DNA of 64,000 bases, from assembly GCF_018873765.1 (NCBI RefSeq), contig NC_057925.1, forward strand, positions 60,214,970 to 60,278,969, in the 5' to 3' direction. Every line of letters begins with the position of its first letter. Within the stretch, counting starts at the first letter, position 1. Under the pieces are notes generated by a model that saw only the letters and a list, made by a program, of their open reading frames with translations, was not told the origin of the DNA and made no database searches. Below are positions 3,601 to 51,358 of this stretch, in pieces. The stretch comes from Telopea speciosissima (taxonomy: Eukaryota; Streptophyta; Magnoliopsida; Proteales; Proteaceae). Both the position numbers and the translations under genes were made by a program.

Positions 3601-5651
3601 ATGGTAGGTGAAACGTCCTCTATGGGTGAAGAGAAACTTAGTCCTAAAACAAAAGAAAAGAATTTATATGGTGGAAAAGGAAGAGAATCGATGAAGACCT
3701 GATTGATATTTATATATATATATATATATATTTTTGAACGTAGAGGTAGAGGACATTTTATATAAGGAGAAGAGAGATAGAGAGACAGATGATGCTAGTG
3801 TACCCTTCTACCGTCCACTCTTATCCTATTTCACTTAAAAAAATATCCGAAGGAATTCTATGACCTCACAAAAGTTCCTATCATCCAATAAAAAGGAAAT
3901 TGTCTTTCCTTCTTCTTTCATACTTAATTCCTTTACTTTGTTATATTGCTGATAATAGATACTTTTGCAAATTTATTGGAATTATTTGAATGACACTTTT
4001 ATAAATTAATCTTGAACATGTAACCTTCTTTTGATTGCTCAGTTCTTTAAGTTAAATGTAAAAAGGGATTTTTAAAATAATTTAAGTGTCATTTTAAAAA
4101 ACTATTTTCAAATATATGTGTGAAACAATAGGGTTTTTACCCTCATTGAAGAAGAAGTGTTTTATACTAGGAGGGTAAAAAAATAAAATTACAAACACCG
4201 ACTGATCTAGCTAGGGTTATTATTAATCTCTTTCCTAATTGTTGGAGGTCCGAAATACGGACCTTTATCTATTCCACTTCCCCAAGTTTCTGTAATAGAG
4301 GAGGGTAAAAATGACTACCCTACCCCTGCCCGAACACACTACCCTGGTGGGGTCCTTCCCCCCTCTCTTCTATTAGAGGAACTTGGAGAAATGGAGCAGA
4401 TAAAAACACCCGAAATACCTCCACTATTCCTTGGCACCCATCTAAACCAATGATGGCCATCGGTATGTGAAAGAATTCCTCCTTCACCGTGGCTTGAGAA
4501 AATATATTATTATATAAGAGGTCATGACATATTCATGTTTTGTTCCTTGTTACATACTTGTATGGAGGCTGAAAATTCACTATTAATTTGTGGTTTTTTT
4601 TTTTTTTTTTTTTTTTTCGAAAAAAAGAGACGGGAATGGAGAAAGATACCATAAAAGGATACGCACGTTGTGTTAGCCAAAAAGAGGGAAATGCAAACTA
4701 TGAGGGCAAGTTGGTGGTTCCTGCAAATTTTGGCGAAGTGGGTGCAGTGCTTGTGGAGAATGAACACCCCACGGAGCTCTTCATCAAGACCATTGTCCTC
4801 AATGGATCTCTCACTGGTACTCTCAACATCACCTGCAACTCTTGGGTCCATTCTAAGTCAGAGAACCCACAAAAGAGGGTCTTCTTCACCAACAAGGTCT
4901 CTCTCTGTCTCTCTCTCTCACTCAAAAATGGGTACAATTTGAAGTAATAATAAGAACACATTATCATAGACATAGTCCATTAAACTCATGTCATGTTTGG
5001 TACTAGTCCTACTTGCCATCACAAACACCAAGTGGCCTGAGGGGGCTGAGAGAGAAGGAGCTTGAGAACCTTCGTGGCGATGGAAAGGGAGAACGAAAGG
5101 CGTTCGAGAGGATCTATGATTACGACAAGTATAATGACCTTGGAGACCCAGACAGCAGTGATGAACTAGCAAGACCAGTCCTAGGTGGTGAGGAACACCC
5201 TTATCCAAGGCGTTGTAGAACAGGCCGTGATCCTTGCGACAAAGGTAAGATATTGATCACCATCACCACCATTTCTGCTTCCCTATCATGTACACATTCT
5301 TTAAATTTGAATGTTGTAGATCCATTGTCGGAGAAAAGAAGCCTCAGCATATACGTACCAAGGGACGAGGAATTCTCTGATGTCAAGACACTAACATTCT
5401 ATTGTGAGACAATAAGTGCTGCATTGGATGCTTTGCTCCCTCAGATCAGAGCTACTCTCACAGACAGCAATCTTGGATTTCCTTCCTTCCTCGCCATTGA
5501 TTCCCTCTTCATTCAAGGGATGGAGTTACCCCAAGTTGAAAATCAAGGGTTATTGAAGAAACTATCTTCTGGGCTTGCCAAGGCTATAAAACATGGAGAT
5601 ACGATCCTGCGCTTTAAGATCCCTAAACTGTATGAAAGTAAGAACTAAGAA

Positions 5652-5689
<38 letters not shown>

Positions 5690-7783
5690 AGCGATCATTT
5701 ACCTTGCAGGAGACCACTTTTCTTGGTTAAGAGAGGAGGAATTTGCTCGTCAAACACTTGCTGGTGTCAACCCCTATAGCATTCAGCTAGTCACAGTATG
5801 ATAAATGAATATCACCTACATATGACATGAGAGTTTAAGAGATACATAAACATCAAAGATCAAAGCTTGTCATCTTACGATTAATAACACAATTTTGCAG
5901 GAATGGCCATTGAAGAGTGAGCTCGATCCTAAGATCTATGGCCCACTGGAGTCGGCAATTACGACTGCAATTGTTGAGCAAGGAATTGGACATCAAATGA
6001 CCATCAATGAGGTAGCACAAATGCAATAGAATAGGAGATTGGTTTAGCATCTACTAATTTCTAATTTATGTTTGCAGGCCATAAATGGAAAGAAACTGTT
6101 CATGTTAGATTATCATGATTTGCTATTACCTTGTGTGAAGAAAGTAAGAGATATAGAAGGCACGACACTATATGGGTCTCGCACACTATTCTTTCTCAAC
6201 CCTGATGGCACACTAAAACCCCTTGCTATCGAGCTCACTCGACCACCCATAGATGACAAGCCACAGTGGAAACAAGTGTTTTTACCTAGTACTGATACCA
6301 TTGATAGTTGGTTATGGAGACTAGCCAAATCTCATGTGTGTGCTCATGAATCAGGTTATCATGAGCTTGTCAGCCACTGGTAAAACCTTCAATGCCCAAC
6401 AAAGGTTTATCCTTTGGGACTTTAATTTGGCATTGTGGAATTAATCTAGCAAACTTTGATGTTGCTCTATTTCTTTTATGTAGGCTGAGGACTCATTGTT
6501 GTACAGAGCCATACATAATTGCAGCTAATCGGCAACTAAGTGCAATGCATCCAATCTACAGATTTTTGCATCCTCATTTTCGATACACAATGAAGATCAA
6601 TTCTCTTGCTCGGTTGGCCCTCATCAATGGAAATGGGATAATTGAGAGTTCCTTCTCACTACGCAAGTATTCAATGGAGCTTAGTTCTGTTGCTTATGAC
6701 AAATTCTGGCGTTTTGACATGGAGGGTCTACCAGCAGACCTCATTAGGAGGTAATGCATTTATGGTATAAAATGTTGATATCAAGGTAAATATAGTAATA
6801 GGACACTACAGTGAAATTTTTAAGTATAACATCGTAGTGTCGTAACTAAGTCATGAATTCTATGGATTATTGATATAGATTCCAAACGCACAATTAAGAG
6901 CTCTAATGGGCAATATCAGAAACAGAGAAACTGTTTCAAGTAGAGCTACAATGGAATCCTTAAAGTCACTCAGCAACTTCTCAAGTAAGGTTCTAATCAA
7001 TGTCATATTTCAATTGCTAACAGGGGAATGGCAGTCAAGGACCAAACAGCTGAGCATGGTGTGAAGCTGACCATCAAGGACTACCCCTTTGCAGATGATG
7101 GCCTCCTCATTTGGACAGCCACAAAGCAATGGGTGAGTGACTATGTCAACCACTATTACCCGGATGCTAGCCTAGTTGAATCTGATCAAGAGCTGCAAGC
7201 ATGGTGGACTGAGGTCAGAACCCAAGGCCATGGAGACAAGAAGGATGAACCATGGTGGCCAGTCCTCGAAACACAAGAAAATCTTATTGAAATCTTGACA
7301 ACCATTATCTGGGTTGCCTCATGCCACCATTCTGCTGTAAACTTTGGTCAGTATGCATATGGTGGTTACTTTCCAAACCGACCCACAATTGCTAGAACCA
7401 ACATGCCCACTGAAGACCCTTCAGAACAAGACCTCAAGAAATTCATGGAGAAACCCACATTAGCACTCTTGCAGTCCTTCCCTTCACAGATTCAAGCAAC
7501 AACTGTGATGACTGTTTTGGATGTGTTGTCAACACACTCGATTGATGAAGAGTATCTTGGAGGAAAGATAGAGGCAACATGGGCCGATAATCCAGTTACC
7601 AAGGATGCATTTGAGAAGTTCAATGAAAGATTGAAGGAGATTGAAGCAATTATTGATGCCAGAAACACAGATTTGAAGCTGAAGAATAGAACTGGAGCTG
7701 GCATTGTACCATATCAGCTCCTGAAACCATTCTCTGACTCTGGATTGACGGGGATGGGAATTCCTAACAGTATCTCTATTTAG
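689..7783 (+). CDS. Plastid-type 13-lipoxygenase (linoleate 13S-lipoxygenase, LOX2 class)
   Basis: Nine exons are inferred: 689-1043, 4628-4896, 5007-5244, 5320-5637, 5710-5795, 5901-6011, 6078-6379, 6484-6750 and 7024-7783, giving 901 residues, normal for type-2 LOX. The enzyme adds O2 to C13 of linoleic or linolenic acid, the entry step to jasmonates and green-leaf volatiles. The first 50 or so residues are Ser/Arg-rich and resemble a chloroplast transit peptide. A PLAT/beta-barrel domain (about 85-205) precedes the catalytic domain. The iron ligands are all present: His554 and His559 (motif [10 protein letters not shown]), His751 and Asn755 (HSAVN), and C-terminal Ile901. The start at 689 was preferred over an in-frame ATG at 596, which would put the GA repeat into the protein. 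Intron 1 (3.6 kb) is full of repeats. A 3' part of this gene is duplicated at 21874. The 13-specificity is inferred from family resemblance. Confidence 0.93.
1250..1540. repeat. Imperfect tandem duplication in LOX intron 1
   Basis: Two units of about 155 bp start at about 1250 and 1405. Both contain the sequence around ccggaacc(t/c)tagaaaatgg and end near a 'gggagagggttgggcat' stretch. It is non-coding; origin unknown. Confidence 0.6.
1979..2129. mobile_element. Foldback (MITE-like) hairpin in LOX intron 1
   Basis: The inner arms are 17 bp and perfectly complementary (2019-2035 with 2054-2070). Outer arms near 1979-1993 and 2115-2129 pair with a few mismatches. No coding capacity is present. 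It is most likely a non-autonomous DNA element; the superfamily is unknown. Confidence 0.6.
2285..2697. repeat. Two-copy tandem repeat, period 206 bp, in LOX intron 1
   Basis: Unit 1 begins at 2285 and unit 2 at 2491; both open with gatcacaat and match over most of their length with scattered substitutions. No open frame is shared. A local tandem duplication is the simplest explanation. Confidence 0.7.
4247..4415. mobile_element. Foldback element, family shared with 50455-50600
   Basis: The flanks near 4258-4310 and 4355-4408 form imperfect inverted repeats. The core ccctgcccgaacac (near 4324-4337) recurs in reverse complement near 50517-50530 with similar flanks. Two copies in introns of unrelated genes indicate a dispersed small repeat family. 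Confidence 0.5.
5651..5688. repeat. (TC)n microsatellite in LOX intron 4
   Basis: An almost pure CT-dinucleotide run lies just before the exon 5 acceptor. The corresponding tract in the duplicate copy (near 22231-22246) is much shorter, so it has changed length since the duplication. Confidence 0.8.
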
Positions 7784-9002
7784 AAGTGAAACATGATCGT
7801 TTTCAAATAATTATTGTTGTGTTATGGACACATCTTATTACCTTATCTAAATAATGAAATTCAATGGCTGCAATAGTTAGTGATGATTGTTAAATCATGC
7901 TACACCATAGCCAATAGAATACAATCCAAATATTTTCTACTGCCCATCTATCTTTCTTAAATTATCATTTGCAATGATAAATAAAGCTGCAGCAATGGGA
8001 AATGAACAATCTCTTTTATTGCTTTTGCTTAACTCTACATTTCAGCTTAAAATTATCCATACACCAAGCTATAATAAGCACAATCCACTACAAAACTACC
8101 AAAAGAGACAAAAGGTCAAAATACCAGAATGGTCATCAACATATGTAGTTACTTGTACAACCAAAATGAGCATCAGTTACAAAGTGTAGTAGAACAAGGT
8201 GCCTTTTCTTTACCCACCCAGTATACCAGAAGGTCCAGAGTAATTTTCTGGGGAAATTCTAAATATCAGCATGAAATGCCACCATGCCTTTTCTATTTCT
8301 TTTGGAGTGAGTTGGTTTGACAAAGCCAATTTCAGAACCAGTTTGCATCAACTTAATGCATGATGAATAGTCTGACACCAATATCATATCAGATGAAATG
8401 CAAGGTGGTTCTGAAGCTGGCACCGTATACAAATAACTACAATGTATGATCACATGAAATCAATCAAAGTCTCTTTTTCCCCCTTTTCTTAACTCCCATG
8501 TGGGTTGGTTGCATAATTTCAAAACCTGATTTGATCAAAACTTCAGAAGAAAGAAACATAACCATGACGAGGCCAACTTATAATATAACACCAATTTATG
8601 ATCATTTATACATATATGTACAAGTAGCAATTCATGATACATGTATGCTCAAAAAGAATGAAACAGGAACAAATACATCCCTGGCAAAACTATCCTGAAA
8701 AGAATAAAGAAATGATTTTTGCTCTTTCATGGTATTACTATCATATACAGGGCACCTATACCATGACTCGCGCATGCATACGTAGACAGAGGTGGCAATG
8801 TGTATGCACGTATGGATACATACTTGCAGATGATATACCTCCAAAATTGCCTCTCTAAAATGACTGCTCAGGAGCCATGGTGCCCTCAAGAATGAAAGTT
8901 TTCAGGTCTCAAAAGGTACGACTCATTCAAGGGTGACGTACCAAGTTTTCCAAGGAGAAAACTGTTGCAATCCAATCCTATGGGAATCCTTTCTTAGTTG
9001 AA
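7784..9002. other. Convergent intergenic region between LOX and O-FucT (left copy)
   Basis: This holds the presumed 3' untranslated parts of LOX and of the O-FucT remnant. AATAATGAAAT-type A/T-rich stretches near 7850 could serve polyadenylation. No open frame is supported. The right copy is 24328-25526. Confidence 0.6.
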
Positions 9003-10206
9003 TGATGTTGTGGATCTTGGGTTAGAATCATTGCACATGCACTCTGTTACAGGATACTTTGTCACATCCCTCCTGGCCTTGCTTGTTCTGATTTCTGGCT
9101 GCCCCAGAGAATCATGGTGAAGATCCTTATAATCCTATTGAACTCAGATTCCAGTAGAGAAGCATTTAAGAAGTAAGGAAGCATCTGTCTTTTGTTCGGG
9201 GTTGTATACCTCTTGTGCCCTGCATAGGCCCTATGCCCCTGTTTCAACAACAGTTGTATAGTCGTTAGCAATGCAAAGTTGCAGAAAAAGATGCCAATCT
9301 ACGTAGCCTTTCAGTAGCATCTACCAGTCATTACAAAAAGTAAGCATTCAATATTATTTAGTAATACTTGCTCATATTCGGGTGAATTAAAACTTGGAAA
9401 GCTATGATGTAAATGAGAATGCATTATAACTCAGACTCAATGCCTTGGTCAATTCGGCATTAATTTTGGTCAAGAGTTCCTTCATTTCTTTATGTATTAA
9501 GCTACTCAATGAAGCAAGACTACAACTAGAAAAACTGGATCCAATGCCCAAATTAGTAACGGTGCTAGCAACATAATACCTGGATAGCATGCCCCATATT
9601 CCCACCATGAGATGGCATGAAGAGATCACTGTTCTCAGAAACTACATAATCAATTGCAGCAAGAAGGGAGGCTCTGTTTGCAAAAGGCTCCAATTCTCCA
9701 GGCAAAGCAAGGTCATTCTTGTTATAGAAATGAGGAAATTCTCTGATTAAAGGTAGTAAAGCTTCTCTTCCCCCCAGTGGAAGGCCTCCTGCCCAATATA
9801 TCGTAGCATTTGTTGGAGCTTCAAGTGCTTTAAGCAGCCTAAACATGAAACAAGAGGATCTTCAGGTTGAAAGAAACAATGCAAATATTATAACTTCAAA
9901 AGTAAAGGTTTTCAAACCCTACCTGGTAACCTCCAAGGCATTCAGAGGGCAAAGCCCTGCAAGCTTGCAATCATGGTAAGTCATGTTCGATCTTGCTGTA
10001 AGGAGCTCTGGCCTTAATTTTCTCTCATTGCGAATTATCTCATCATACTCATGGCTCAACCCAGGAAGACACCCAGTTCCCACCCAAACATCTTTCTCCA
10101 TGTGTAGATGAAGAGCAAGGTATGGTCCCTTACTCTGCATTCTGTCTGCTAGCTTGTTACCAAGATCTGGAATAGGAGGGGCAAACCTCAATGCATGAAA
10201 TGCCAC
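9003..10206 (-). pseudogene. Truncated O-fucosyltransferase family gene (3' half only)
   Basis: This corresponds to exons 4-6 of the intact gene at 25527-28359: about 10206-9923, 9838-9580 and 9235-9003. Exons 1-3 (N-terminal anchor and first catalytic half) are absent because the duplication ends at 10387. A one-base loss near 9126-9128 shifts the last exon relative to the intact copy. The conserved HLR motif of the intact copy reads HLH here. The late motif SHGGNMGHAIQ is kept. It is most likely a non-functional duplicate; transcription cannot be excluded. Confidence 0.88.
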
Positions 10207-10387
10207 CTAAAACAATACAATAAACAAATAAGAGAATGCAACATAAACCAAAGAAAGAAACAACAACTCACCATAAAATGGTAAATACATCTAGTTGGGT
10301 ACTCAATTGATTCATATCAGAATTTAGTTATTTGACATCAAAAATTTGGGCAAAACCTCTTCCTTTCCATCATAAAAAATGGGAAGG

Positions 10388-10639
10388 AAAATGCTAAGCT
10401 TCTAAATGTTATTCCACTAATCATTTGAAAATAAGCTTCCAAAAGCAAAATGGTACAAAACACTCTACAAATCAGGAAATCATTCAAAGCAACTGCATAT
10501 CGGGTGGAAAAAAAATTGGCATACCATGTAGCTTACTAGCTGGTGTGTCATATGCTTCCAGAAAATTTAGGTCGTACATTGCATGAAAAATACCATTGAA
10601 TCAGTAACATACTGCATCTAGTGCTTGCAGGATCCATCT
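10388..10639. other. Junction between the left duplication copy and inserted spacer DNA
   Basis: Similarity to the O-FucT locus stops at 10387. The following 250 bp match nothing else in the window that I can see and contain no supported gene. Confidence 0.5.
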
Positions 10640-12655
10640 CCCTCACACAACACACACAACTCACATCTGTTTCTGCAGAATTCAGCAACTCTGGAATAAC
10701 TGAAAAACCAGTATCTCTGAGACTGAAATGAACCTCGAAACGAGTCATTGGTGTTCCCGGCTCAGTGCTGGGTGGTTCGGTAAATCCCTCTAGATCCGGT
10801 GTTGGCAGTATTTCAGTTCCAGCTGACATTTCTGATATGGGCCCTGGCCCTAAACTACTGGCATGGATGGGAGTGAATCCGTCTCTTTTTGATGGAGAAG
10901 GCATCAATCCAGGTGAAGAAGGCATCAACTCAGGAATAAAACTGAGACCAACATGGCCTTCCTCAAATCGAAGGTGTTCAATTTCCATCTCATGGTCAGG
11001 TATGGGAGCAGGAGACTGTGCACCCCTCAACTCAGCAAGAGCATCCTCTGTGGGAATTGAACCAACTCTGGAAGAAATGAAATCCTTCTTATCTATGTTT
11101 TGAAGATTTGTACACAAACCTGCAGAAAGATACATGTCCAGATTCTCATAAAATCAGTTCCACAGACTGGAATTGGTGAAGTACCAAGATTCAGCCGGCA
11201 AAGTGGAAATCACTCGCCAGAAATTGATGGTTCAAGGAAGACATGCTCCATCCTTAACCTGTTGTAGAACCTCCAAACATCCAAATTTGTGCAAGGAAGT
11301 TTCTTACAATGGTGCACTAGACGACTGGGGTCTCTGAGACTCTCCCTCATGAACCTATAAAACCCAAATTAATAACATGAAATTCCATAACCAAAGATGA
11401 GTATAAGAGTAAGCAAGAACTTTACACCAAGGAAAAAAATAACAATAACAATAGCACTTACTTATTCGACAACACTACAGACTGATCAAACACCTGTTTT
11501 CTCTTCCGTGCTCTAGCTTTTGTTTCTCAATAGGCAGTGTTGATTGAATCACCAGCCCAGGTGACATATGACCAGCATCATGAGAAACCATTATCATGGA
11601 AAGGCCGAATAGAATTTTCTCTTTTAAGCCAGTAAAATAGAACAAACATAGATATATTGTAATGATGCCCAAGGTGAACCCACCTAGTGAAAAATGTGCA
11701 TCAAAACCTTCAAGAGCCTCTTCTGAAGCAACAGAGGTTGGTAGTTCTGGTTGTAACTGAAATGGTTCAGATTATCCTCCAGAAACTACCATATCCTCCA
11801 CAATTGGAGAAAGAGCCTTTTCCCCACTCATATTCTGGTTGAATTTGCTTGTTTTGTTCAAAAGCACCATTACTGAGGTTTGGCAACTCTGGAAAGTCTT
11901 CTGATCTAGAGTTATGAACAGCATCATGGATAATTTCAATTTCAGGAAGGCCTTGGGAGTTAGGCATTTCAGCATCTTTCTGACTGGATGCTTCTGCTTG
12001 ACCTCTTGGACCAGGATCAGAAACACCCACACCATTGTCTGCTGGAGCTGAATAGGGGGCACTACATAAAAAGATATCACGTTATTTCTGCCTTGCTTTT
12101 TTTTAATTCCTCAAAATTCAAAAGTGCAAGCATATCACAAGATATAAAAGAAGCATACTCTTCTTCCATTGGAATAATTCCGGAATCTCTGCAAGAGGAG
12201 AAATATTCATTCTAATATCCTATAAAGAGCAAAAGTCCCTGTCAAGTGTTGAACAGTGCTTGGGATTTAAAATATTAGAAACAACACATATCAATGACAC
12301 AAAATTTCAATAGACTTTGGACCTCATCAATGAAGAAGGCAATATAAGGATCTCCTTCAGCAGGGATTTGATCTGTGGACAATATAAAACCAAACATTTA
12401 CTCGTACATATGTGCAATTAAAATAAATTTTCAGAAAGAAAACAAAAAACATTAAAAAACAAAAAAAAATAATCTCAAATGCAAGCATCAATCCAAGACC
12501 AAAACCTGTCAATGTAATCTCTTCACGGCTCTTGAGATGATTATCTGGTGATCTGAGAAGCGAAATACAATTCAACCAATAAGTTGGAACAGAACATAAG
12601 ATACACATAGGACGGCAAGACCCGAAATACCTTACCTGTCAAGAGAAAACTCAGC
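10640..12655 (-). pseudogene. Decayed internal fragment of a cohesin kleisin gene (RAD21/SYN family)
   Basis: Pieces on the minus strand, in order, match the middle of plant RAD21-type kleisins: an exon ending SLDR near 12632; SPDNHLKSREEITLT near 12500-12560; a short exon DQIPAEGDPYIAFFIDE near 12320-12370; a Ser/Pro/Glu-rich part near 11770-12060; EKQK and ARKRKQVFDQSVVLSNK near 11460-11560; a LDVWR region near 11210-11350; and an acidic Pro-rich part with DALAEL near 10690-11110. The N-terminal SMC3-binding domain and the C-terminal winged helix are missing. At least one frame shift separates the EKQK and RKRKQ pieces. The parent would be a cohesin ring subunit. This piece looks dead and sits in the spacer between the two duplication copies. 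Confidence 0.75.
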
Positions 12656-12660
12656 ATCCA

Positions 12661-13385
12661 TGTGAACTGATTATAGTGGAGAAATTCAATGTTGAATCTC
12701 ACCCATCTGAGGACTAAAACTTAGCTTTCCTATACTTGATTATGTATGGACATCATAGTCTCTATATATATGACTCTTCACCCTCTCCTCTCCTATATTA
12801 AGGATTCACAAACTAAAAAATTACATCCAACCTGACCCAAAAGTTTCAGCACTCTTCTGAAAACCAATCTATCAACATCCTTGAACTCCATTAAGAGAGT
12901 TGAAACATTAGATTTCTTCATTCTTCTGACCTTAAAACACCAATTAGAATCTCTGAATCATAGAAATTAGAGCATAAATGCAAAATGAATACAGAATTGG
13001 TTGCATTGGACCAACATCTATGTGAACTGATTATAGTGGACAAATTCAATACTGAATCTCACCCATCTGAGGACTAAAATTTAGTTTTCCTATACTTGAT
13101 TATGTATGGACATCAGAGTCTCTATATATATGATCCTTCACCCTCTCCTCTCCTATATTAAGGAGTCACACAAACTAAAAAAATACATCAATCTGACCCA
13201 AAGGTTAGAGTTCAGCACTCTCCCGAAAGCCAATCTATCAATATGCTTGAACTCCTTAAGAGAGTAAAGGTCCAATCCATAAAGAGAGTTGAAACAGTAG
13301 ATTCCTTCATTTTCTTACCTCAAAACACCAATCAGAATCTCTGAATCACAGAAATTTGAGCATAAATGCAAAATGAATGAAAATG
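12661..13385. repeat. Two-copy tandem repeat, period about 360 bp
   Basis: Units of about 340-365 bp begin at 12661 and 13021, both with tgtgaactgattatagtgg, and stay alignable through gcataaatgcaaaatgaat. The second has small insertions. It is adjacent to, and may include intron sequence of, the kleisin fragment. Confidence 0.8.
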
Positions 13386-14183
13386 TACATCAAAAAAAAG
13401 AAAAAAAAAAACTGGGAAACTTCTCCACAAGAAACCTAAACATAATGCCGAGAAACTAAGATCCAAGAAACAAACAACTAGACAACCTATTACAGAACAA
13501 GAAGTCAACTCCTCCACAAGCTTCTTTTAAACCTTCTCTAACAATTTAATACAGCACATGACAATTATTGCGACTTCATTAAAAATTGATAGATTGCCAC
13601 TAATTCGAAAACTCGTTTCAAGTCTACCATTTCAGTTAGACAAAAATTTAAATGAAGTCGCAATGAAGCTTTGGCAAGATTTGGTCATTTCGATCATGTC
13701 TACATTGTAGGTAAAAATGCACTGTTTCAACGAAATTTCATTCAAATTTTAATTCATTGTGAGCTAAACCAGACCACGTCCTCTCAATCCAATAGTCGGA
13801 ATTACCACATCATCTGTCCAATGGCTCAAAATGGTAGACCATTTAAGCACAATAGTAGAGATTAAACTCAAAGTACTACTTGATATTTTATTCACTAAAC
13901 ACAAAAAACATCAACCCCTTTTAACAACTCTAAATTCAACAACATATAAAATCATGAGGAATAATAGAAATCTAAGTGCCACTGTCTTTGTATAAATTTC
14001 AAAAACAAAGAGTTTAATCACCGAGCTACAGTCATTCTTTTCTAACTATACTTGTGAATGTCCAATATGACAAATTCTCATCAGTAAGGATAGATCAAGT
14101 AAATAACAAGCTCCTAATTCCATCAAATAGTAAGTAAATAACATGCACTTACTTTCATCTTAAACATAAATATTAAACAACAA
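13386..14183. other. A/T-rich spacer with one small inverted repeat
   Basis: Arms near 13566-13583 and 13646-13663 (attgcgacttcatt and its complement) form a hairpin with a loop of about 60 bp. No gene is supported; short ORFs here have no recognisable domain. Confidence 0.5.
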
Positions 14184-14642
14184 CTAAAATAATAAACCTA
14201 TGAAGTGCGCAAGTCTACCGCGCCTTTCCACAACAGTTCCGTGGCGTTGGAGTCTGTAGAAATCAAGAAGTGCATTGACTTGAGCTCCAGTCAAGTGGTA
14301 CAGCACATCATTCTTTATCGCAGGCGCCCACAACGGAAATTGTCCATACATGTTCTGCAGCCAGTGAACAATTGAGTTCCAGTTAGCTTGAGAGTTCAGA
14401 ACTCTCGCATAACTGTTATAGTCCAAGGCAGTCATCCCCACAAGAACCATGTCAAGAAGCACTTGAATATTGTTATAGTTATTCTGCATAGCAACATTTT
14501 GGGCATTAACTGCCTCATGAAGTGCGTTCAATTGCTGTAATAGTTGCGCATTGTTCGGAAGACAAACAAACACACCAATCTGTTGTTGCATAAACGGCCA
14601 ATGTTGTATGATAGCTTGTACAATAGCGTTCATACTGTCCAT
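14184..14642 (-). CDS. Unrecognised 152-residue ORF, helical, with a SAP-like C-terminal segment
   Basis: The ORF runs from ATG at 14642 to a stop at 14184. The protein is rich in Gln, Asn, Leu and Ala and looks all-helical. Its last 35 residues (TGAQVNALLDFYRLQRHG then ERRGRLAHFIG) have the spacing of a SAP DNA-binding motif: helix, short loop with a basic residue, second helix. Upstream in frame is a Pro/Asn/Gly-rich stretch of about a dozen codons reaching back to a stop. No intron, promoter or family is recognised. It could be an orphan gene, a domesticated or decaying mobile-element protein, or part of a larger broken gene. It lies in the spacer between the duplication copies. Confidence 0.35.
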   Translation of the reverse strand: MDSMNAIVQAIIQHWPFMQQQIGVFVCLPNNAQLLQQLNALHEAVNAQNVAMQNNYNNIQVLLDMVLVGMTALDYNSYARVLNSQANWNSIVHWLQNMYGQFPLWAPAIKNDVLYHLTGAQVNALLDFYRLQRHGTVVERRGRLAHFIGLLF

Positions 14643-15234: not shown

Positions 15235-15239
15235 GTATT

Positions 15240-15894: not shown

Positions 15895-15920
15895 ACTGGT
15901 ATCAGAGCTTGTGATTATTT

Positions 15921-18900
15921 ATGCAAATAATTTTTAGAAAAATGACCAACCATATTTTTAAGGTGGAGCCTTTTGATGGAAAGGCAAACTTTGAGTTGTG
16001 GAAAATGAAGATGAAGGACTTATTGATCCAAAATGGTTGTCACAAGGCATTATTGGAAAAAGAAAATAAATCGGATCCCATGACAGATGATGCTTGGGAA
16101 GACATGGATCTCAAAGCCATGTCCACTATCAGGTTGAGCTTGTCTAATGAAGTTTTATTCAATATTGCACTTGAGACAACGGCTGCGGGTTTGTGGTCAA
16201 AGTTGAAAAGTATTTATCAAACCAAGTCTCTCACGAATCGGATTTTTTTGAAAAGAAAATTATTCTCTTTGAGAATGAAAGATGGTGCAAATGTTTCCAA
16301 TCATTTAAATGAGTTCAACAATATTCTTTGTCAATTGGAAAGTGTTGAAGAGAAGATGAAAGATGAAGACAAGGCAGTTATTTTACTTTGCACTCTACCG
16401 GAATCCTATGATCATTTGGTGACAACCCTAAATTGTAGTAAAGGGGATTCTTTGAACTATGATTCAGTTTGCAGTACATTACTTGCTGAAGAACTCCGAA
16501 AAAAGGCTTCTTTGGGGAGTTCTATGGATAAAGGATCGGAAGTTCACATGACTAGGGGTAGAGGTAAAGACCGTTATGACTCTTCAAAAAGATTTTCGAG
16601 AAGCAAATCAAGACCCCGGTCTAAATCCAAGGGGCATGATGGTAAGAATGGTTGTTGGTATTGTGGTGAGAGTGGACATTTTAAAAAGAATTGTCCAAAG
16701 AAAAAGAAATCATTTTTTGAAAAAGGTTCCAATTCTGGAAATGAAAAAGCTAAGGATAAGATTGGTGAAAATCTTAAGGAGGCAAATCAAGTGGAGGTTA
16801 CCACATCTAGTGTTATTGAGGATGAGGTGTTGATGGTGGGTTGTAACCCGGAATTTCATCAAAATTGGGTTCTTGACATCGGTGCTACTCATCATATGTG
16901 CCCACATATATCTTGGTTTAGCACATATGAGCCGTGTGAAGGAAATTCGGTGAAAATGGGAAATAAGTCAACTAGTAGAACATTTGGTGTTGGCTCGGTA
17001 CGTTTGAGGATGTTTGATGGGATGATCCGAACACTTGAAAATGTTCGACATGTTACAGATATGTCAAAAAGTTTAATTTCTTTGCCTACTTTGGAGTTGG
17101 AAGGTTGTAAATTTTCAGGTGGAGATGGAGTCCTTAAATTTTCTAAAGGGGCTTTTGTGATTATGAAGGGAGTCCGGGTTGGGTTGTTGTATAAGTTATT
17201 GGGAAAAACCGTGGTTGATGATATTACAAACATGGCAATTGGCAAAGGTGATGTTGCTCATAGGTTGTGGCATCGGAGACTTGGTCATATGAGTGAGAAG
17301 GGCATGGAGATATTGATGAAGAAGAAACTTATCTCAATGCTAAATTTTTCGGAAAAGGAATTTTGTGAGCATTGTGTCTATGGTAAAAAACATAGACGAA
17401 CTTTCAAGGCCGGAAAACATACAAGCAAAGATATACTTGAGTACATTCACTCGGATGTTTGGGGGCCATCACCGGTTACATCTTTTAGTGGTGCCAAGTA
17501 CTTTGTTACGTTCATTGATGACTTCTCAAGGAAAGTATGGGTGATAATGCTTAAGTCGAAAGGTGATGTATTTATGGCATTCAAGAATTTTAAGGCCGAG
17601 GTGGAGAAGACAACCGGAAAATGCATCAAGGTATTAAGGACAGACAACGGAAGGGAATATACCTCTAATAATGAATTTGATAAATTTTGCAAGGATGAAG
17701 GAATTGTTCGACATTTCACCGTAGTATGTACTCCTCAACAAAATGGGGTGGTGGAATGCATGAATAGAACATTGATGGAAAGAGCTCGGGCTATGTTGAG
17801 CAATGCAAACTTAGAGCAAGAGTTGTGGGCGGAAGCCGTATCAACGGCATGCTATCTTGTAAATAGGTCTCCTTCAATGACTTTGGGTGGTAAGACACCA
17901 AATGAGGTATGGTTCGGAACTCCTTGTGATTATTCAGATTTGAAAGTATTTGATTGTGATGCTTATGCTTTGATTCCTAGTTGTCATAAAACTAAACTTG
18001 ATCCAAAATCCAAAAAATGCATTTTTGTAGGATCTGGAAAAAATGTAAAGGGGTATCGGTTGTGGGATCCTAATGCCCACAAGATCATCATAAGTCGTGA
18101 TGTGCATTTTGATGAATCCTCTATGTTGATGAAAGGATTGGAAAAGAAGATTGTCAATTAAAAGTCTCTTGTCGAAGATACCCAAGAAATTCATATTCAA
18201 CCTTCAAACTCTTCTTCAAATGAGGGTGCTCATAATGAAGATGTTCTTATGGATTTTGGTGATCAAGGTGTACAATCGGGAGTTCAAGATAAAGCACCGG
18301 TTGATGTTGAAGAAGTTGTGCAACCTATTGTAAGAAGGTCTTCAAGAGAAATTCGCTTACTGGAACGGTTCAAGGATTATGTTGATCCAAATACTCTTAA
18401 TGCATTGATTGCATTGGATGAAGAACCAAGCTCCTTTGTAGATGCCATTAATGGAGGTGATGCAAAGAATTGGAAAGATGCTATGGAAGAGGAAATGCAA
18501 GCTCTTAAAAAGAACAAGACATGGGATTTGGTAGAGTTACCAAAAGGTAGAAAGGCAATTGGTTGTAAATGGGTCTACAAGCTCAAGAAAGGGGTAGATG
18601 GCATTGCGAAAAGGTATAGGGCAAGGCTTGTTGCTCAAGGTTTTGCACAAAAGGAAGGGATTGATTTCTTTGAAATATTTGCTCCGGTTGTAAAGTTGGT
18701 AACTATCCGATTAGTGCTTGGACTTGTTGCCATGCATGATTTAGAGCTTGAGCAAATGAATGTGAAGACGGCCTTCTTACATGGTGATCTTCTTGAAGAA
18801 GTGTTTATGAGGCAGCCGGAGGGCTTTATAAAAAAAGACAAGGGAAAGCTTGTGTGCAAGTTGAAGAAGTCCTTATATGGACTAAAGCAAGCTTCAAGAC

Positions 18901-19997
18901 AATGGTATAGGACAGTCGACTTTTTTATTTTGGGTCCTGGTTATCAAAGGAGTGAGTATGACCATTGCATGTACATGAAATTCTTAGATGATGGTGTTTT
19001 TTTAATTTTCGTTTTATATGTGGATGATATGCTTTTGGTATCCAAGGATAAAACTAAAATTGAAGAGCTCAAGGGATGTTTGAGCAAGAGGTTTGAAATG
19101 AAGGATTTTGGACCAGCCAAGCAAATTCTTGGACTTGAGATTCAAAGAGATAGAAGGAATGGAATTTTGTCACTTTCACAAAAGACATTTGTGGAAAGGG
19201 TTCTTGACAAGTTTGGTATGAGTAAAGCAAAGGCGGTTAGAACTCCATTGGCATTACATTTCAAGTTCTCTTCCGAAGATTGTCCAAAAATGGAAGAGGA
19301 GAAGGAGCGCATGGCTAAGTTTCCTTATGCAAGTGTTGTTGGAAGTTTGATGTTTTGGATGGTGTGTACTAGACCGGATATTGCTCATCCGGTTGGTGTG
19401 TTAAGTAGATTCATGGCTAATCCCGGAAAGGTGCATTGGGAGGCGGCAAAGTGGGTGCTTCAGTACTTGAGAGGCACAAGTGATTACTCTATTACTTTTA
19501 GTAAAGCATTGGTACCAATTCAAGGTTTTGTGGATGCAAGTTATGCCGATGATCGTGATAGAGGAAGATCTACTACAGGTTATGTTTTCAGATTTGGTAA
19601 TGGACCAATAAGTTGGATGTCTAAGCTTCAAGCAACGGTAGCATTATCAACTACCGAGGCCGAATACATGGCTGCAACGGAAGCTTGCAAGGAAGCGGTT
19701 TGGCTTCAAGGTTTAATGGGTGAGATTGGTATTGAGTCAAAACCCATGGATTTATTTTGTGATAACATGAGTGCTATTCATTTAGCTAAAAATCCCGTTC
19801 ATCACAAGAGGACAAAACATATACTTGTTCAATACCACTACATTCGAGATGTCATTGAAGATGGAAGGATCCAATTGTTGAAAGTAGGAACCAAGGAGAA
19901 TGTAGCGGGTATGCTTACCAAAACAGTTCAAGGAGAGAAGTTGGATTGGAGTTTATCCTCTCTTGGGTTCAAGAAGGAAGGCTTGACAGGTCGGTGA
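15921..19997 (+). mobile_element. Copia internal coding region (gag-pol)
   Basis: Gag of the UBN2/copia type lies at about 15930-16560. A CCHC zinc knuckle (CWYCGESGHFKKNC) lies at 16654-16695. A protease-like segment is near 16865. The pre-integrase HRLWHRRLGH motif is near 17260. The integrase core is at about 17440-17950, reverse transcriptase at about 18510-19240 with the YVDDM motif near 19017, and RNase H at about 19520-19940. It is treated as a fossil with about one break in the coding region. Confidence 0.93.
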
Positions 19998-20017
19998 TTA
20001 TGCATCAAGGTGGAGAT

Positions 20018-20672
20018 TGTTGAGTCGGTGATGCATATCACCGTATTTTTTATTTTGTTTTTATTTTTTTGTTTGTTTTGTGTGGGCCTCATCTCTTTGT
20101 CTCACATGGCTTTTATGTGAGGAATTGAAAAGAGAAAAGAGAAGGCATGTGAAAGGTCTTGGATGGTTAAAAAGAAAAAAGGGGAGGAGAAATAGGTGGA
20201 AGTGGAAAGGTCTTTTGAGAAGGTTTTTTGTGGAAGACAGAAACAAGAACGTGCTTTGTATGGCTCTCTTCTTCTTCTACGGTGTTGTTTTTCTGTCCAA
20301 GTTTGGTGTTGGAAGGATTTTTCCAACGGTTCTCTTGTGGGAAGGTTTGCAATCAAGGTTGTGATTGTGGGAAGATTGGTGATTGGGTTTTGAAGGTGGG
20401 TTCTTCACAGTGTATTGAGGTAACCTTGTAACAACCCAAATCTTGTACTATTTTGATTCTAAATAGTGGATTCTTTCTGCCCTTCCCGTGGATGTAGCCC
20501 ATAATGGTGAACCACGTAATTCCTTGTGTTTTTTATTTTGCCTTTGCATTTGTGCTTGTGATTCTTTATTTATTTTTCTATCTTATTTACACAAGATCTT
20601 GGTTTCTTTTTCGTGTATTTGAGGGTGGTTGATTTTATCAGTCGATCCTTGGAGGGTCTCTTAATCGCTAGA
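20018..20672 (+). repeat. 3' LTR of the copia element
   Basis: This is the 655-bp partner of the 5' LTR, same length and same ends, followed by the gtatt target duplication. Confidence 0.95.
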
Positions 20673-20677
20673 GTATT

Positions 20678-21873
20678 TGGTAACGACGAGATATTAGCAT
20701 CCAATCTGTAATTAACTAGCAATATTCAGTTTAAGCCCTACTTTTTTTAATAATTCAATTAAAGGTCCGACAAATTATATTATTATTTTGTACATACAGC
20801 TTTGCCTCAGCGCCTCTGCCGTTGATCCCATAGATCTCCAATTAAAATATGTAATCATACCCCTCTTTATAATCTTATCATTTAGATTCTTAAATGGTTT
20901 CCCCAAAAACCCAAAAAAAAAAAGATTCTTACATGGTTTCCTCTATTATAAGAGATCCCCCATAAAATAAGAAAAGCGGCGGCCCTCTCCAAAATCCAAA
21001 TAAAAACAAAAAAAAATGTATTATGAAATATTCTTCTTCTCTTTTCAAGTGTTTTATGAAATTTAGTTCATAAATTTTTCATATGATGGAGAGAATGGAT
21101 CACCTACACGTAGATGAACATACACCTCTGAGCCAATGACATGTTTATTTTATTTTCATAAATGCCCATCTTCCCCTTATAAATGACAAAAATAAGACAA
21201 GTAATTACCTCTCACATGTACATGCACCTATACGTGCAGAGGAACCAATCTATATGATGGAACGGTTTTTATTAAAGATAAATCTGTTCAAAAATGAATT
21301 TTGTATTAAAATTAGATGGCAAAAGCATCTATTACAACCATGGTTCCTAATCCTGGGATCAATCTCAAGATCGATCAGGACTAATACCAATCTGGATCAA
21401 TCAGAATTGGCTTGGATCGGTCAAAAAGACCAAAACTCGATTTTTACTGAATCGTTTCCTGCATCGGCCACTATCATTTAAAATAATATTAAAAAATTAA
21501 CAAAATTGAAAAAAAATAGAAAAAAAGAAAATCTCAAAAATGACCATAAATATCGACCTATTCATATGAATGAGCACTAAGTCCAGCAATAACAACTTAG
21601 ATCTATTCATATGAATGAGCACAAAGTCAAGCCATAACAACTGGTTCGATCGATTTCGTGACAAGCTCAGGCCACATCAAACCCATGGATGCAACACCAA
21701 CACCACTCTTTGTTGGAGTATATTCATCAAACCCGGATCATTTTGGAATAAATAAATTTAATTTTATCATTGCATGAATTTCATTTACGGGCTTCGTATT
21801 CGAGAAAGCACTATCTATATTCATCTAAAAACTAAATGGACACGAATTCGGATATTACAATTTTCGATTAGAT
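20678..21873. other. Spacer between the copia element and the right duplication copy
   Basis: A/T-rich and without a supported gene. A direct repeat containing tattcatatgaatgagcac occurs near 21558 and 21604. A degenerate 'gatc(g/a)atca' region near 21350-21430 resembles diffuse repeats elsewhere in the window. Confidence 0.5.
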
Positions 21874-21906
21874 AATGTACACATTCTTTAAATTTGAATG
21901 TTGCAG

Positions 21907-24327
21907 ATCCATTGCCGGAGAAAAGAAGCCTCAGCATATATGTACCAAGGGATGAGGAATTCTCTGATGTCAAGACACTAACATTCTATTGTGAGACAAT
22001 AAGTGCTGCATTGGATGCTTTGCTCCCTCAGATCAGAGCTACTCTCACAGACAGCAATCTTGGATTCCCTTCCTTCCTCGCCATTGATTCCCTCTTCATT
22101 CAAGGGATGGAGTTACCCCAAGTTGAAAATCAAGGGTTCTTCAGGACTTGCCAAGGCTATAAAACATGGAGATACGATCCTGCGCTTTAAGATCCCTGAA
22201 CTGTATGAAAGTAAGAACTAAGAACGAACCTCTCTCTCTCTCTCTAAGAGATCATTTACCTTTGCAGGAGACCACTTTTCTTGGTTAAGAGAGGAGGAAT
22301 TTGCTCGTCAAACACTTGCTGGTGTCAACCCCTATAGCTTTCAGCTAGTCACAGTATGATAAATGAAAATCACCTACATAAGACATGAGAGTTTAAGAGA
22401 TACATAAACATCAAAGATATCTTACGATTAATAACACAATTTTGCAGGAATGGCCATTGAAGAGTGAGCTCGATCCTAAGATCTATGGCCCACTGGAGTC
22501 GGCAATTACGACTGCAATTGTTGATCAAGGAATTGGACATCAAATGACCATCAATGAGGTAGCACAACTGCAATAGAATAGGAGATTGGGTTTAGCATCT
22601 ACTAATTTCTAACTTATGTTTGCAGGCCATAAATGGGAAGAAATTGTTCATGTTAGATTATCATGATTTGCTATTACCTTACGTAAAGAAAGTAAGAGAT
22701 ATAGAAGGCACAACGCTATATGGGTCTCGCACACTATTCTTTCTCAACCCTGATGGCACACTAAAACCCCTTGCTATTGAGCTCACTCGACCACCCATAG
22801 ATGACAAGCCACAGTGCAAACAAGTGTTCTTACCTAGTACTGATACCATTGATGTTTGATTATGGAGACTAGCAAAATCTCATGTGTGTGCCCATGAATC
22901 AGGTTATCATGAGCTTGTCAGCCACTGGTAAAACCTTCAATGCCCAACAAAGGTTTATCCTTTGGGACTTTAATTTGGCATTATGGAATTAATCTAGCAA
23001 ACTTTGATGTTGCTCTGTTTCTTTTATGTAGGCTGAGGACTCATTGTTGTGCAGAGCCATACATAATTGCAGCTAATCTGCAACTAAGTGCAATGCATCC
23101 AATCTACAGATTGTTGCATCCTCATTTTCGATACACAATGAAGATCAATTCCCTTGCTCGGCTGGCCCTCATCAAAGGAAATGGGATAATTGAGAGTTCC
23201 TTCTCACTATGCAAGTATTCAATGGAGCTTAGTTCTGTTGCCTATGACAAATTCTGGCGTTTTGACATGGAGGGTCTACCAGCAGACCTCATCAGGAGGT
23301 AATGCATTTATGGTATAAAATGTTGACAAAGTAAATATAGTAATAGGTCACTACAGTGAAATTTTTAAGTATAACATCGTAGTGTCGTAACTAAGTCATG
23401 AATTCTATGGATCATTGATACAGATTCCAAACGCAAAATTAAGAGCTCTAATGGGAGATATCAGAAATACAAAAACTGTTTCAAGTAGAGCTACAATGGA
23501 ATCCTTAAAGTCACTCAGCAACTTCTCAAGAAGGTTCTAAACAGTGTCATATTTCAATTGCTAACAGGGTAATGGCAGTCAAGGACCCAACAGCTGAGCA
23601 TGGTGTGAAGCTGGCCATCAAGAACTACCCCTTTGCAGATGATGGTCTCCTCATTTGGACAGCCACAAAGCAATGGGTTAGTGACTATGTCAACCACTAT
23701 TACCCAGATCCTTGCCTAGTTGAATCTGATCAAGAGCTGCAGGCGTGGTGGACTTAGGTTAGAACCCAAGGCCATGGAGACAAGAAGGATGAACCATGGT
23801 GGCCAGTCCTTAAAACACAAGAAAATCTTACTGAAATCTTGACAACCATTATCTGGGTTGCCTCATGCCAGCATTCTGCTGTAAACTTTGGTCAGTATGC
23901 ATATGGTGGTTACTTTCCAAACCGACCCACAATTGCTAGAACCAACATGCCCACTGAAGACCCTTCAGAACAAGACCTCAAGAAATTCATAGAGAACCCT
24001 GGATTAGCACTCCTGCAATCCTTCCCTTCACAGATTCAGGCTACAACTGTTATGACTGTCTTGGATGTGTAGTCAACACACTCGATTGATGAAGAGTATC
24101 TTGGAAGAAAGATAGAGGCATCACGGGCTGATAGTCCAGCTACCAAGGATGCATTTGAGAAGTTCAATGAAAGAATGAAGGAGATTGAAGCAGTTATCGA
24201 TGCCAGAAACACAGATTTGAAGCTGAAGAATAGAACTGGAGCTGGCATTGTCCATATCAGCTCCTGAAACCATTCTCTGATTCTGGATTGACCGGGATGG
24301 GAATACCTAACAGTATCTCTATTTAGA
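21907..24327 (+). pseudogene. Truncated lipoxygenase pseudogene (exons 4-9 only)
   Basis: It is collinear with exons 4-9 of the intact LOX at 689-7783 but lacks the transit peptide, PLAT domain and exons 1-3. Clear disabling changes relative to the intact copy: a deletion in exon 4 near 22137-22143; a stop-creating change near 22855-22860 in exon 7; a TAG at 23755-23757 in place of a Glu codon; a TAG near 24070; and a two-base loss near 24250. The iron-ligand motif HSAVN is still recognisable. It is a host-gene duplicate that decayed after the segmental duplication. Confidence 0.93.
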
Positions 24328-25526
24328 AGTGAAACATGATCGTTTTCAAATGCATCTTTATTACTTTATCTGAATAATGAAATTCAGATGGCTGCAAACG
24401 TTAGTGATGATTGTTAAATCATGCTACACCATAGCCAATGGAATACAATCCAAATATTTTCTACTGCCCATCTATCTTCCTTAAATTATCAGTTGCTATG
24501 ATTAATAAAGCTGCAGCAATGGGAAATGAACAATCTCTTTTATTACTTTTGCTTAACTGTACATTTCAGCTTAAAATTATCCATACACCAAGCTATAATA
24601 AGCACAATCCACTAGAAAACTACCAAAAGAGACAAAAGGTCAAAATACCAGAATGGTCATCAACATATGTAGTTACTTGTACAACCTGAATGAGCATCAG
24701 TTACAAAATGTAGTAGAACAAGGTGCCTTTTCTTTACCCACCCAGTATACCAGAAAGTCCAGACTAATTTTCTGGGGAAATTCTAAATATCACCATGAAA
24801 TGCCACCATGCCTTTTCTATTTCTTTTGGAGTGAGTTAGTTTGACAAAGCCAATTTCAAAACCAGTTTCCATCAACTTAATACATGATGAATAGTCTGAC
24901 ACCAATATCATATCAGATGAAATGCAAGGTGGTTCTGAAGATGGCACCGTATACAAATAACTACAATGTATGATCACATGAAATCAATCAAAGCCTCTTT
25001 TCCCCCTTTTCTTAACTCCCATGTGGGTTGGTTGCATAATTTCAAAACCTGATTTGATCAGAACTTCAGAAGAAAGAAACATAACCATGAAGAGGCCAAC
25101 TTATACTATAACACCAATTCATGATCATTTATACATATATGTACAAGTAGCAATTCATGATACATGTATGCTTAAAAAGAATGAAACAGGAACAAATAAA
25201 TCCCTGGCAAAACTATCCTGAAAAGAATAAAGAAATGATTTTTGCTCTTTCATGGTATTACTATCATATACAGGGCACCTATACCATGACTCATGCATGC
25301 CTACATAGACAGAGGTGGCAATGAGTATGCACGTATGGACACATACTTGCAGAAGATATACCTCCAAAATTGCCTCTCTAAAATGACTGCTCAGGAGCCA
25401 TGGTGCCCTCAAGAATGAAGTTTTCAGGTCTCAAAAGGTACGACTCATTTAAGGGCGGCGTACCCAAGTTTTCCAATGGAGAAAACTGTTGCAATCCAAT
25501 CCCGTGGGAATCCTTTCATAGTTGAA
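24328..25526. other. Convergent intergenic region between LOX pseudogene and O-FucT (right copy)
   Basis: This is the duplicate of 7784-9002. It includes the likely 3' untranslated region of the intact O-FucT gene. No separate gene is supported. Confidence 0.6.
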
Positions 25527-28359
25527 TCATGTTGTGGATCTTGGATTAGAATCATTGCACATGCACTCTGTTACAGGATACTTTGTCACATCCCTCCCGG
25601 CCTTGCTTGTTCTGATCTCCGGCTGCCCCAGAGAATCATGGTGAAGATCCCTTATAATCCTATTAAACTCAGATTCCGGTAGAGAAGAATTTAAGAAGTA
25701 AGGAAGCATCTGTCTTTTGTTCGGGGTTATATACTTCTTGTGCCCTGCATAGGCCCTATGGCCCTGTTTCAACAACAGTTGTATAGTCGTTAGCAATGCA
25801 AAGTTGCAGAAAAAGGTGCCAATCTACGTAGCCTTTCAGTAGCATCTACCAGTCATTACAAAAAGCAAGCATTCAATATTATTTAGTAATACTTGCTCAT
25901 ATTCTAGTGGAAATTGAAACTTGGAAAACTAAGAAGTAAAAGAGAATGCATGTTAACTCAGACTCGATACCCAGGTCAATTAGGCAAATTGATTTTGGTC
26001 AAGAGTTGTTTGATTTCATTATGTACTAAGCTCCTCTACGCAGCAAGACTACAACTAGCAAAACTGGATCCAATGCCCAAACTAGTAACAGTGCTAGCAA
26101 CATAATACCTGTATAGCATGCCCCATATTCCCACCATGAGATGGCATGAAGACATCACTGTTCTCAGAAACTATATAATCAATAGCAGCTAGAAGAGAGG
26201 CTCTGTTTGCAAATGGCTCCAATTCTCCAGGCAAAGCAAGGTCATTCTTGTTATAGAAATGAGGAAATTCTCTGATTAAAGGTAGTAAAGCTTCTCTTCC
26301 CCCCAATGGAAGGCCTCCTGCCCAATATATCGTTGCATTTCTTGGAGCTTCAAGTGCTTTAAGCAGCCTAAACATGAAACAAGAGGATCTTCAGGTTGAA
26401 AGAAACAATGCAAATATTATAACTTCAAAAGTAAAGGTTTTCAAACCCTACCTGGTAACTTCCAAGGCATTCAGAGGGCAAAGCCCTGCAAGCTTGCGAT
26501 CATGGTAAGTCATGTTCGATCTTGCTGTAAGGAGCTCTGGCCTTAATTTTCTCTCATTGCGAATTATCTCATCATACTCACGGCTCAACCCAGGAAGACA
26601 CCCAGTCCTCACCCAAACATCTTTCTCCATGCGTAGATGAAGAGCAAGGTATGGTCCCTCACTCCGCATTCTGTCTGCTAGCTTGTTACCAAGCTCTAGA
26701 ATAGGAGGGGCAAACCTCAATGCATGAAATGCCACCTAAAACAATACAATAATCAAATAAGAGAATGCACAATAAACCAGAGAAAGAAACAACAACTCAC
26801 GATAAAATGGTAAATACATCTAGTTGGGTGCTCAATTGATTCATATCAGACTTTAGTTACTTGACATCAAAATTTTGGGCAAAACCTCTTCCTTTCCATC
26901 ATAAGAAATGGGAAGGGAAGGGGCAAAAAGATTGAAGAAATGAGTTGCATCAAACCTTACCTTGCACCGGAGCTTCTGAAGATCAGAGGGAAGATCCTTT
27001 GAGAGCCTAGAATCCAAACCCCGCAAGAGCAACACGTTGTCCCTGTTAAGCTGCAAAAGATGAGGGTTTTCAGATACTAAAAAGAGTTTTTCAGTTTATG
27101 GGAATTTTAAACTCCTCTCGGAATGGTTATTGTGAAAATTTGAAACTGCCAACAGTTACAGAATCAGGGAACTCGGAGGATATAATCACTAATGATCCAA
27201 ATCAATTAGTCCCAAATATTAAAACTGATAACGGAAGCTTAAAAGGGAACTACAAATTAAAAAAAAAAAATTTTAAAATGTAGTTAGCTTAACGTTATCC
27301 CCTCCCCTCCTTTGTTTGAGAATTAGTAAAAATAAGAGGGTGTTCAAATGATTCTTCTTCTGAAACTAATTGTGTCTCTTACCCGCTTGAGGTAGCGTTG
27401 GCGAATCCAACGCGGGGAGACATGAAGAGGGGTCCGCTTCTCCTCCACTGGCCTCGACATCAGATGCGTCGATGGCAACGATGAAACTATCCGTACATCA
27501 TGGGCAAGAACTCTTTTGAAGTGATCCAGATCGAAAATATCAGAAAATTCGCTGCACCCACCAAAAATTTCAAGAGAAAATTCAATTAATTTGTCCAGTT
27601 AGTGTGAAAAAGACTGAAATCAGCATCACCCACCGACATTAAAAGTATTGAACCAAAAATAGAAGCTTTAAAGTTCTAATTTTTCTTTTCCATTTTTGTT
27701 CTTGTTTCGTTCAATTAATCTTTTGCAGTGTATCACTGAGTCTTTTACCTTTCATCTCCCCAAATAACGTTCACTTGCAAGATAGGAACAACCAAAGCAG
27801 CTCCAAGAATACGAGAAATAACAACTGCATCAACGATCTGGTTCCTCTGCTGGTTCATCCCACCAGAAACCACAACCATTAGATATTTGGTTCGATCCTT
27901 CAGAATCTCAGAGGTGGACCGTCGATACTCTGTGCTGAAATACAAGCAGGGACGATAACCCAACCCGTCCGGTTGCTTCCAGAACTCCGCTTCCTCACCT
28001 TCCTCACTTTCCTCCCCATCTCTAGATTCAAAGGACAATGGCATAACAGAGTTTCCCTTCACAGTCGACGCCTGAGTTTGACCATCCAATGAACATGGCC
28101 TCGGCCAAAAAGGAAGTAAAGGATCGAAGTTGAATCCCACCTCCAACATTCCAAGCAAAGCAAAGAGAAAGAGCAAGAAAGCCCAGAACTTTGGGTTCCT
28201 TGAGTTGTTGCTGAAGAAATTGCTTGCATTCTTCTTTGAAGACTTCTTGGTCGGCGAAAGGAGTAGAGAGTGAAGAGAAGAAGCTGAAAGAGAGCTGACA
28301 ATTTGAGATGGTACAGAAATGTAAGAGAGCTTGTGTGATTGGTTCTTCGACTTGGCCAT
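25527..28359 (-). CDS. O-fucosyltransferase family protein (plant GT106-type, PF10250)
   Basis: Six exons are inferred: 28359-27749, 27551-27383, 27050-26961, 26735-26452, 26367-26109 and 25763-25527, giving 549 residues. A basic cytosolic tail and one hydrophobic anchor (about residues 58-74, FWAFLLFLFALLGML) predict a type II Golgi membrane protein. Family landmarks are GGMNQQRNQIVDAVVISRILGA-like N-terminal text, HFKRVLAHDVRIV, the HLRMEKD motif with its conserved Arg, SHGGNMGHAIQ and the C-terminal GRDVTKYPVTECMC. Members transfer sugars in the secretory pathway; the acceptor of this one is unknown. Its last three exons lie in the duplicated block and its first three outside it. The first exon uses the only upstream ATG that gives the family N-terminus. 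Confidence 0.92.
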
Positions 28360-29781: not shown

Positions 29782-29797
29782 TTAGTGAAATTCAACC

Positions 29798-43800: not shown

Positions 43801-51358
<7,558 letters not shown>

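Follow-up and report, generated by a model that had tools for sequence, protein, structure and literature searches.

The window analysed here, a stretch of 64,000 nucleotides of the Telopea speciosissima genome (G000:C10:60214970-60278969), contains a lipoxygenase (LOX) gene and an O-fucosyltransferase (O-FucT) gene that form a convergent pair. Part of this pair is present twice, in two direct blocks of about 5.1 kb that are separated by ectopic DNA, and each of the two broken genes is represented by one whole and one truncated, or 'headless', copy. The genome searched comprises 822.9 Mb in 1287 contigs, of which C10 carries the window. The features of the locus, in window coordinates, are as follows.

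689..7783, plus strand: whole lipoxygenase gene, 9 exons, 901 amino acids, PF00305 and PLAT domains
5288..10387, plus strand: left block, with LOX exons 4-9, an intergenic stretch and O-FucT exons 4-6
9003..10206, minus strand: headless O-FucT, exons 4-6 only, with a 1-bp deletion in the last exon and the stop codon lost
10388..10394: left-junction filler of about 7 nt, a poor match to either side (filler or diverged block end)
10395..21876: ectopic insert, the last two bases of which (AT) are common with the right block
10395..12663, minus strand: RAD21/REC8-like gene fragment in the insert
12934..15166, minus strand: one unit related to a tandem array at C10:43.74 Mb that has units of about 2.47 kb
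15240..20672, plus strand: Ty1-copia element inside the insert, with long terminal repeats (LTRs) at 15240-15894 and 20018-20672 and the target duplication GTATT
21875..26916, plus strand: right block
21907..24326, plus strand: headless LOX, exons 4-9 only, with a 14-bp deletion, a 1-bp deletion and three stops
25527..28359, minus strand: whole O-FucT gene, 6 exons, 549 amino acids, PF10250

Comparison of the window with itself by BLAST gives a single long direct repeat, 5285-10390 and 21872-26919, with 94.3% identity over 5117 columns. The ends were inspected base by base, and the outermost bases common to both blocks are 5288/21875 on the left and 10387/26916 on the right. The left end common to both blocks is ATGTACACATTC, starting at 5288 and 21875, and on the right the identity reaches GGAAGG at 10387 and 26916. 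A first-pass annotation of this DNA had placed the repeats at 5288-10387 and 21874-26916, which is correct to within one base. Both copies have the same orientation. They start in LOX intron 3 (5245-5319) and end in O-FucT intron 3 (26736-26960), so that the earlier placement of both breakpoints in third introns agrees with the gene models. The base-by-base alignment that the first-pass annotation had proposed as a check, made globally, shows single matching ends and contains 5038 aligned sites with 219 differences (4.35% substitutions) and 17 indels. The Kimura distance between the blocks is 0.045±0.003 overall and 0.048±0.005 outside the exons.

The gene models bear out the earlier description of a whole LOX with a headless O-FucT on the left and a headless LOX with a whole O-FucT on the right, and disabling changes are, as had been claimed, confined to the headless copies. 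All nine exons of the left LOX are open and joined by GT-AG splice sites, and no disabling change was seen across them; the gene is putatively of the 13-LOX type, given its transit-peptide-like N terminus. The right LOX lacks exons 1-3. Its 14-bp deletion is missing from both of the outgroup LOX copies that cover the site and its 1-bp deletion from all three, and thus both deletions arose in the right copy. The left O-FucT also lacks exons 1-3, and its 1-bp deletion lies near 9123-9127, the exact placement depending on the alignment. The right O-FucT shows no disabling change across its six exons.

Either gene has its whole copy in one block and its headless copy in the opposite one. With both blocks alike in age and location, the locus is its own control, in which selection on whole and headless copies can be compared with little else differing. 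Changes in LOX were assigned to the two copies using the gene at C10:60183527-60186640 (minus strand) as an outgroup (605 codons), and those in O-FucT using the gene at C10:6.23 Mb (259 codons). Indel codons were dropped from the LOX counts, as were sites at which the outgroup fitted neither copy (2, 4, 4 and 1 in four runs). The O-FucT counts exclude one ambiguous site, one codon with an indel and the loss of one stop. Under neutrality, a tally of every possible single change, with a weight of 2.8 for transitions, predicts about 2.6 nonsynonymous changes for each synonymous one.

The ratio of nonsynonymous to synonymous changes is 9:23 in the whole left LOX and 23:14, plus three stops, in the headless right LOX. 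It is reversed for O-FucT, with 3:7 in the whole right copy and 13:6, plus the stop loss, in the headless left copy. The left-right contrast has p=0.007 for LOX and p=0.064 for O-FucT alone. Both whole copies depart from neutrality (left LOX, p=2e-7; right O-FucT, p=0.007), whereas the headless copies do not (right LOX, p=0.20; left O-FucT, p=0.80). When pooled, the whole copies have 12:30 (p=5e-9 against neutrality) and the headless copies 36:20 (p=0.18), and the two groups differ from each other with p=0.0005. Other LOX outgroups give 10:21 on the left and 21:13 on the right (594 codons), 9:13 and 20:14 (434 codons) and, where two outgroups agree, 7:20 and 19:12 (594 codons), in each case with the three stops on the right in addition. 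Selection thus flips by gene and by block in the manner predicted, and constraint follows the wholeness of the gene, not the position of the block.

The first-pass annotation had regarded the locus as a simple direct tandem duplication. The direct repeat and the location of both its ends inside genes stand, but the blocks do not abut: the 11487 bp between them belong to neither, and about 6 kb of this is ectopic DNA other than the copia element. The insert measures 6044 bp after removal of the retrotransposon and one target copy. Its parts 10395-13010, 14040-15241, 20673-21574 and 21563-21876 match C10:43995217-44001490, in order and on the other strand. This relative, referred to below as the 44.0 Mb locus, has no counterpart of window positions 13011-14039 and has about 1.4 kb that is missing from the insert. 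Short parts of the insert recur widely in the genome, with 42 matches among the 40 candidates scored out of 999 for one search and 57 among the 40 scored out of 109 for the other; among these scored candidates the 44.0 Mb locus is the sole match to both sides of the insert.

The 44.0 Mb relative extends beyond both ends of the insert, and hence the window holds a cut-out piece, made up of part of a cohesin-type gene fragment and the array-related unit. On the RAD21 side, the 44.0 Mb locus stays homologous past the insert end, at about 90%, to a fuller gene at C10:60.10 Mb; pieces of this gene match the N-terminal domain of Rad21/Rec8 at 5e-34 and, in part, the C-terminal domain at 2e-8. The left boundary of the insert is common to several genome matches and was considered as a possible mobile-element end. 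This boundary is in fact the window's own junction, because the homology between the 44.0 Mb locus and the C10:60.10 Mb gene continues beyond it. At the right join, the bases AT are common to both sides, a microhomology of 2 bp. No more than 7 nt separate the insert from either block end, a fit so close that an independent insertion at a later time would achieve it only by chance.

A RAD21-like exon ends at 10665 on the minus strand, in phase 0 and with a GT donor, upstream of exon 4 of the headless O-FucT (10206, phase 0). Judged by phase, an in-frame RAD21-like/O-FucT chimera would be possible on paper. A chimeric protein was rejected as a candidate, however, since a frameshift interrupts the headless O-FucT, whose changes are those expected under neutrality. 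The array related to window positions 12934-15166 consists of about five 2.47-kb tandem units (L034-L035, C10:43739118-43752794). An O-FucT fragment, 84% identical to window positions 10120-10237, is found at C10:43737872-43737988, 1.1 kb from one end of this array.

The copia element, which touches neither join of the insert that contains it, has its domains in copia order: gag, integrase and then RVT_2. The 44.0 Mb locus carries the empty site for it. The distance between its LTRs is 0.046±0.009, compared to 0.045±0.003 between the blocks, a ratio of 1.02 (0.64-1.44). If the element landed after the insert arrived, this equality places the insert at the junction early in the life of the duplication.

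It is reasonably probable, in our judgement, that the locus arose by break repair or template switching in which 5.1 kb was duplicated and an ectopic fragment was patched in between the copies. The process would have started with a chromosome break or a stalled fork at the convergent LOX/O-FucT pair. Repair would have duplicated the 5.1 kb from LOX intron 3 to O-FucT intron 3 in direct order, and about 6 kb from elsewhere on the same chromosome would have been set between the copies at joins of little or no homology. Because the unit begins and ends inside genes, and these genes converge, each gene is left whole and with a headless partner; the whole gene would have stayed on its outer side, and the partner, without a promoter of its own, would have faced away from the junction. 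Afterwards, the whole genes would have remained under purifying selection and the headless ones decayed, and the copia retrotransposon probably landed in the patch. We infer that duplication and patch belong to one event, that a repair pathway produced them and that copia came later than the patch. A single repair or template-switch event is the simplest account of the duplication and the patch, since the insert meets the blocks so closely, homology at the joins does not exceed 2 bp and no flanking repeat is present (E≤1e-10). A more specific version is a tentative possibility: in one germ-line template-switching event, the 5.1 kb would have been duplicated and a locus 16 Mb away would have supplied an inverted copy of about 6 kb. 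Such an event would amount to an insertion with a flanking duplication on the kilobase scale, setting a RAD21-like exon before exon 4 of the headless O-FucT, so that a chimeric in-frame transcript might have been possible at birth.

Several observations weigh against the break-repair account. The insert diverges unevenly from the 44.0 Mb locus. The distance is 0.030±0.004 for the RAD21 fragment, about three standard errors below the block distance, but 0.075 at 12641-13010 and 0.158 at 14040-15238, and on the right side 0.087 at 20678-21571 and 0.051 at 21572-21874. The insert is thus not cleanly datable and the 44.0 Mb locus is not obviously its direct donor. The low value speaks against a joint origin, were this locus the direct donor, whereas the high values speak against its being so. 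Exchange among the repeated units may be part of the cause of this unevenness. The copia element could in principle have arrived already inside the insert. The headless copies have a pooled omega of 0.69 (0.39-1.25), which leaves room, although it creates no need, for a constrained phase before the beheading.

The last of these points is also accommodated by an alternative in two steps, which we regard as rather doubtful. A larger tandem duplication would have carried both whole genes, and a deletion accompanied by an ectopic patch would then have removed the 5' halves of the left O-FucT and the right LOX, together with all the DNA that lay between them. This leaves exactly the observed blocks, and it suits a neighborhood in which the LOX cluster has repeatedly duplicated, broken copies. 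A comparable explanation, a deletion of about 10 kb between neighboring p genes with 50 bp of filler, is given for maize p2/p1 (PMC2686159). However, two steps require one event more, self-BLAST of the window at E≤1e-10 found nothing of the lost gene halves in the insert, and the headless copies are indistinguishable from neutral since the split. Improbable, too, is a simple tandem duplication with a bare junction into which the ectopic fragment was inserted later and independently. The RAD21 part, closer to the 44.0 Mb locus than the blocks are to each other, would fit such a late arrival; the other parts of the insert, at 0.051 to 0.158, would not. The fragment would also have had to hit the very point at which two 5.1-kb blocks met, and the equality of the copia LTR and block distances stands against it as well.

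Unequal exchange is expected in gene clusters, and the LOX genes are clustered. Nevertheless, an origin by unequal crossing over, or non-allelic homologous recombination, between repeats on either side of the unit is very unlikely: only 2 bp of microhomology and a short filler are present at the junction, and self-BLAST of the window at E≤1e-10, which shorter or older repeats could escape, found no repeat common to both outer ends and the junction. This origin was rejected on the latter ground. It is just as hard to credit an assembly artefact, in which two haplotypes were laid end to end. The blocks differ by 4.35% substitutions, compared to a heterozygosity of 0.76% given for the species (PMC13080361), are under opposite selection, have different flanks and enclose an insert with a nested retrotransposon.

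A single event of duplication and patching has counterparts among known processes. Vaughn and Bennetzen reportedly described, in rice in 2014, insertions that form tandem duplications by 'patch-mediated' repair of staggered breaks, on a much shorter scale. Alternative transposition of maize Ac is said to yield direct tandem duplications without unequal crossing over and with transposon ends at the junction; the copia element of the window, by contrast, is inside the insert and at neither join. Plant break repair can insert sequence from elsewhere where ends join with little homology, as reports on maize p2/p1 (PMC2686159) and wheat (PMC7156093, PMC3445842) describe, and gene-bearing filler is among the cases given (PMC3445842). 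The window resembles these cases in having ectopic sequence at low-homology joins: a relative located elsewhere runs past both insert ends, and the joins have microhomology or a few added nucleotides. The filler sizes given for maize range from 1 to 131 bp (PMC2686159), whereas about 6 kb lies in the window, between two 5.1-kb copies. Tandem duplications of Drosophila yakuba with breakpoints in genes likewise leave fragments or chimeras beside the parents (PMC5460883). They differ in that both breakpoints of the window are in converging genes, making both extra copies headless, and in the kilobases of ectopic DNA at the junction. A full-text search found no paper that joins lipoxygenase, O-fucosyltransferase, tandem duplication and pseudogene, a statement that applies to this search and not to print at large.

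These processes are known already, and the locus is a clear new and unusually legible example of an ordinary accident. Neither its own-control design nor its insert overturns anything known. What the insert suggests is that kilobases of ectopic DNA can lie at the junction of a plant direct duplication several kilobases long, a point relevant to the origin of such duplications.

The same genome contains a single whole O-FucT next to a LOX 3' end in a paralogous region at C10:6.22-6.23 Mb, on the same chromosome and 54 Mb away. This O-FucT (C10:6229172-6233387) encodes 551 amino acids without an internal stop, and beside it is a match to the LOX tail, 137 columns in length (C10:6228789-6228924). 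A RAD21-like match and a second LOX are located upstream, in the same order as at C10:60.10-60.14 Mb. The region looks like an ancient duplicate of the window's region, and is a paralogue, not the counterpart in a relative species. Window positions 38500-43500, to the right of the blocks, have no match there among the 40 candidates scored out of 132, and thus the paralogy relies on three gene families (RAD21-like, LOX and O-FucT) in the same order.

The first-pass annotation had also read the locus as a change in copy number that leaves gene dosage as it was, which is a conjecture for a LOX gene with relatives close by. In the LOX cluster upstream of the window, at least one more copy is open over exons 2-9, the exons resolved in it, and a copy at C10:60180284-60182915 has parts missing. 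Another copy is apparently split: exon 1 and part of exon 2 are at G000:C10:60193824-60195544, and most of exon 7 with exons 8 and 9 is 14 kb off, at 60209656-60211181; exons 3-6 gave no match in the interval 60193824-60211181. Two loci on other chromosomes, L037 (C8:65786952-65787987) and L038 (C6:4037193-4038207), carry a stretch of LOX exon 8 that is 82-83% identical to window positions 6419-6907. They have about 0.5 kb more in common beyond the exon, as if a mobile element had captured it.

Elsewhere in the window, the plus strand at 29785-31142 contains the remnant of the end of a non-LTR-type retrotransposon, with zf-RVT (29785-30426) and RVT_3/RNase H-like (30672-31139) matches. Imperfect palindromes, detected by comparison with their own reverse complements, are located at 49931-50105 (76% over 180 columns) and 52776-52841 (91% over 66).

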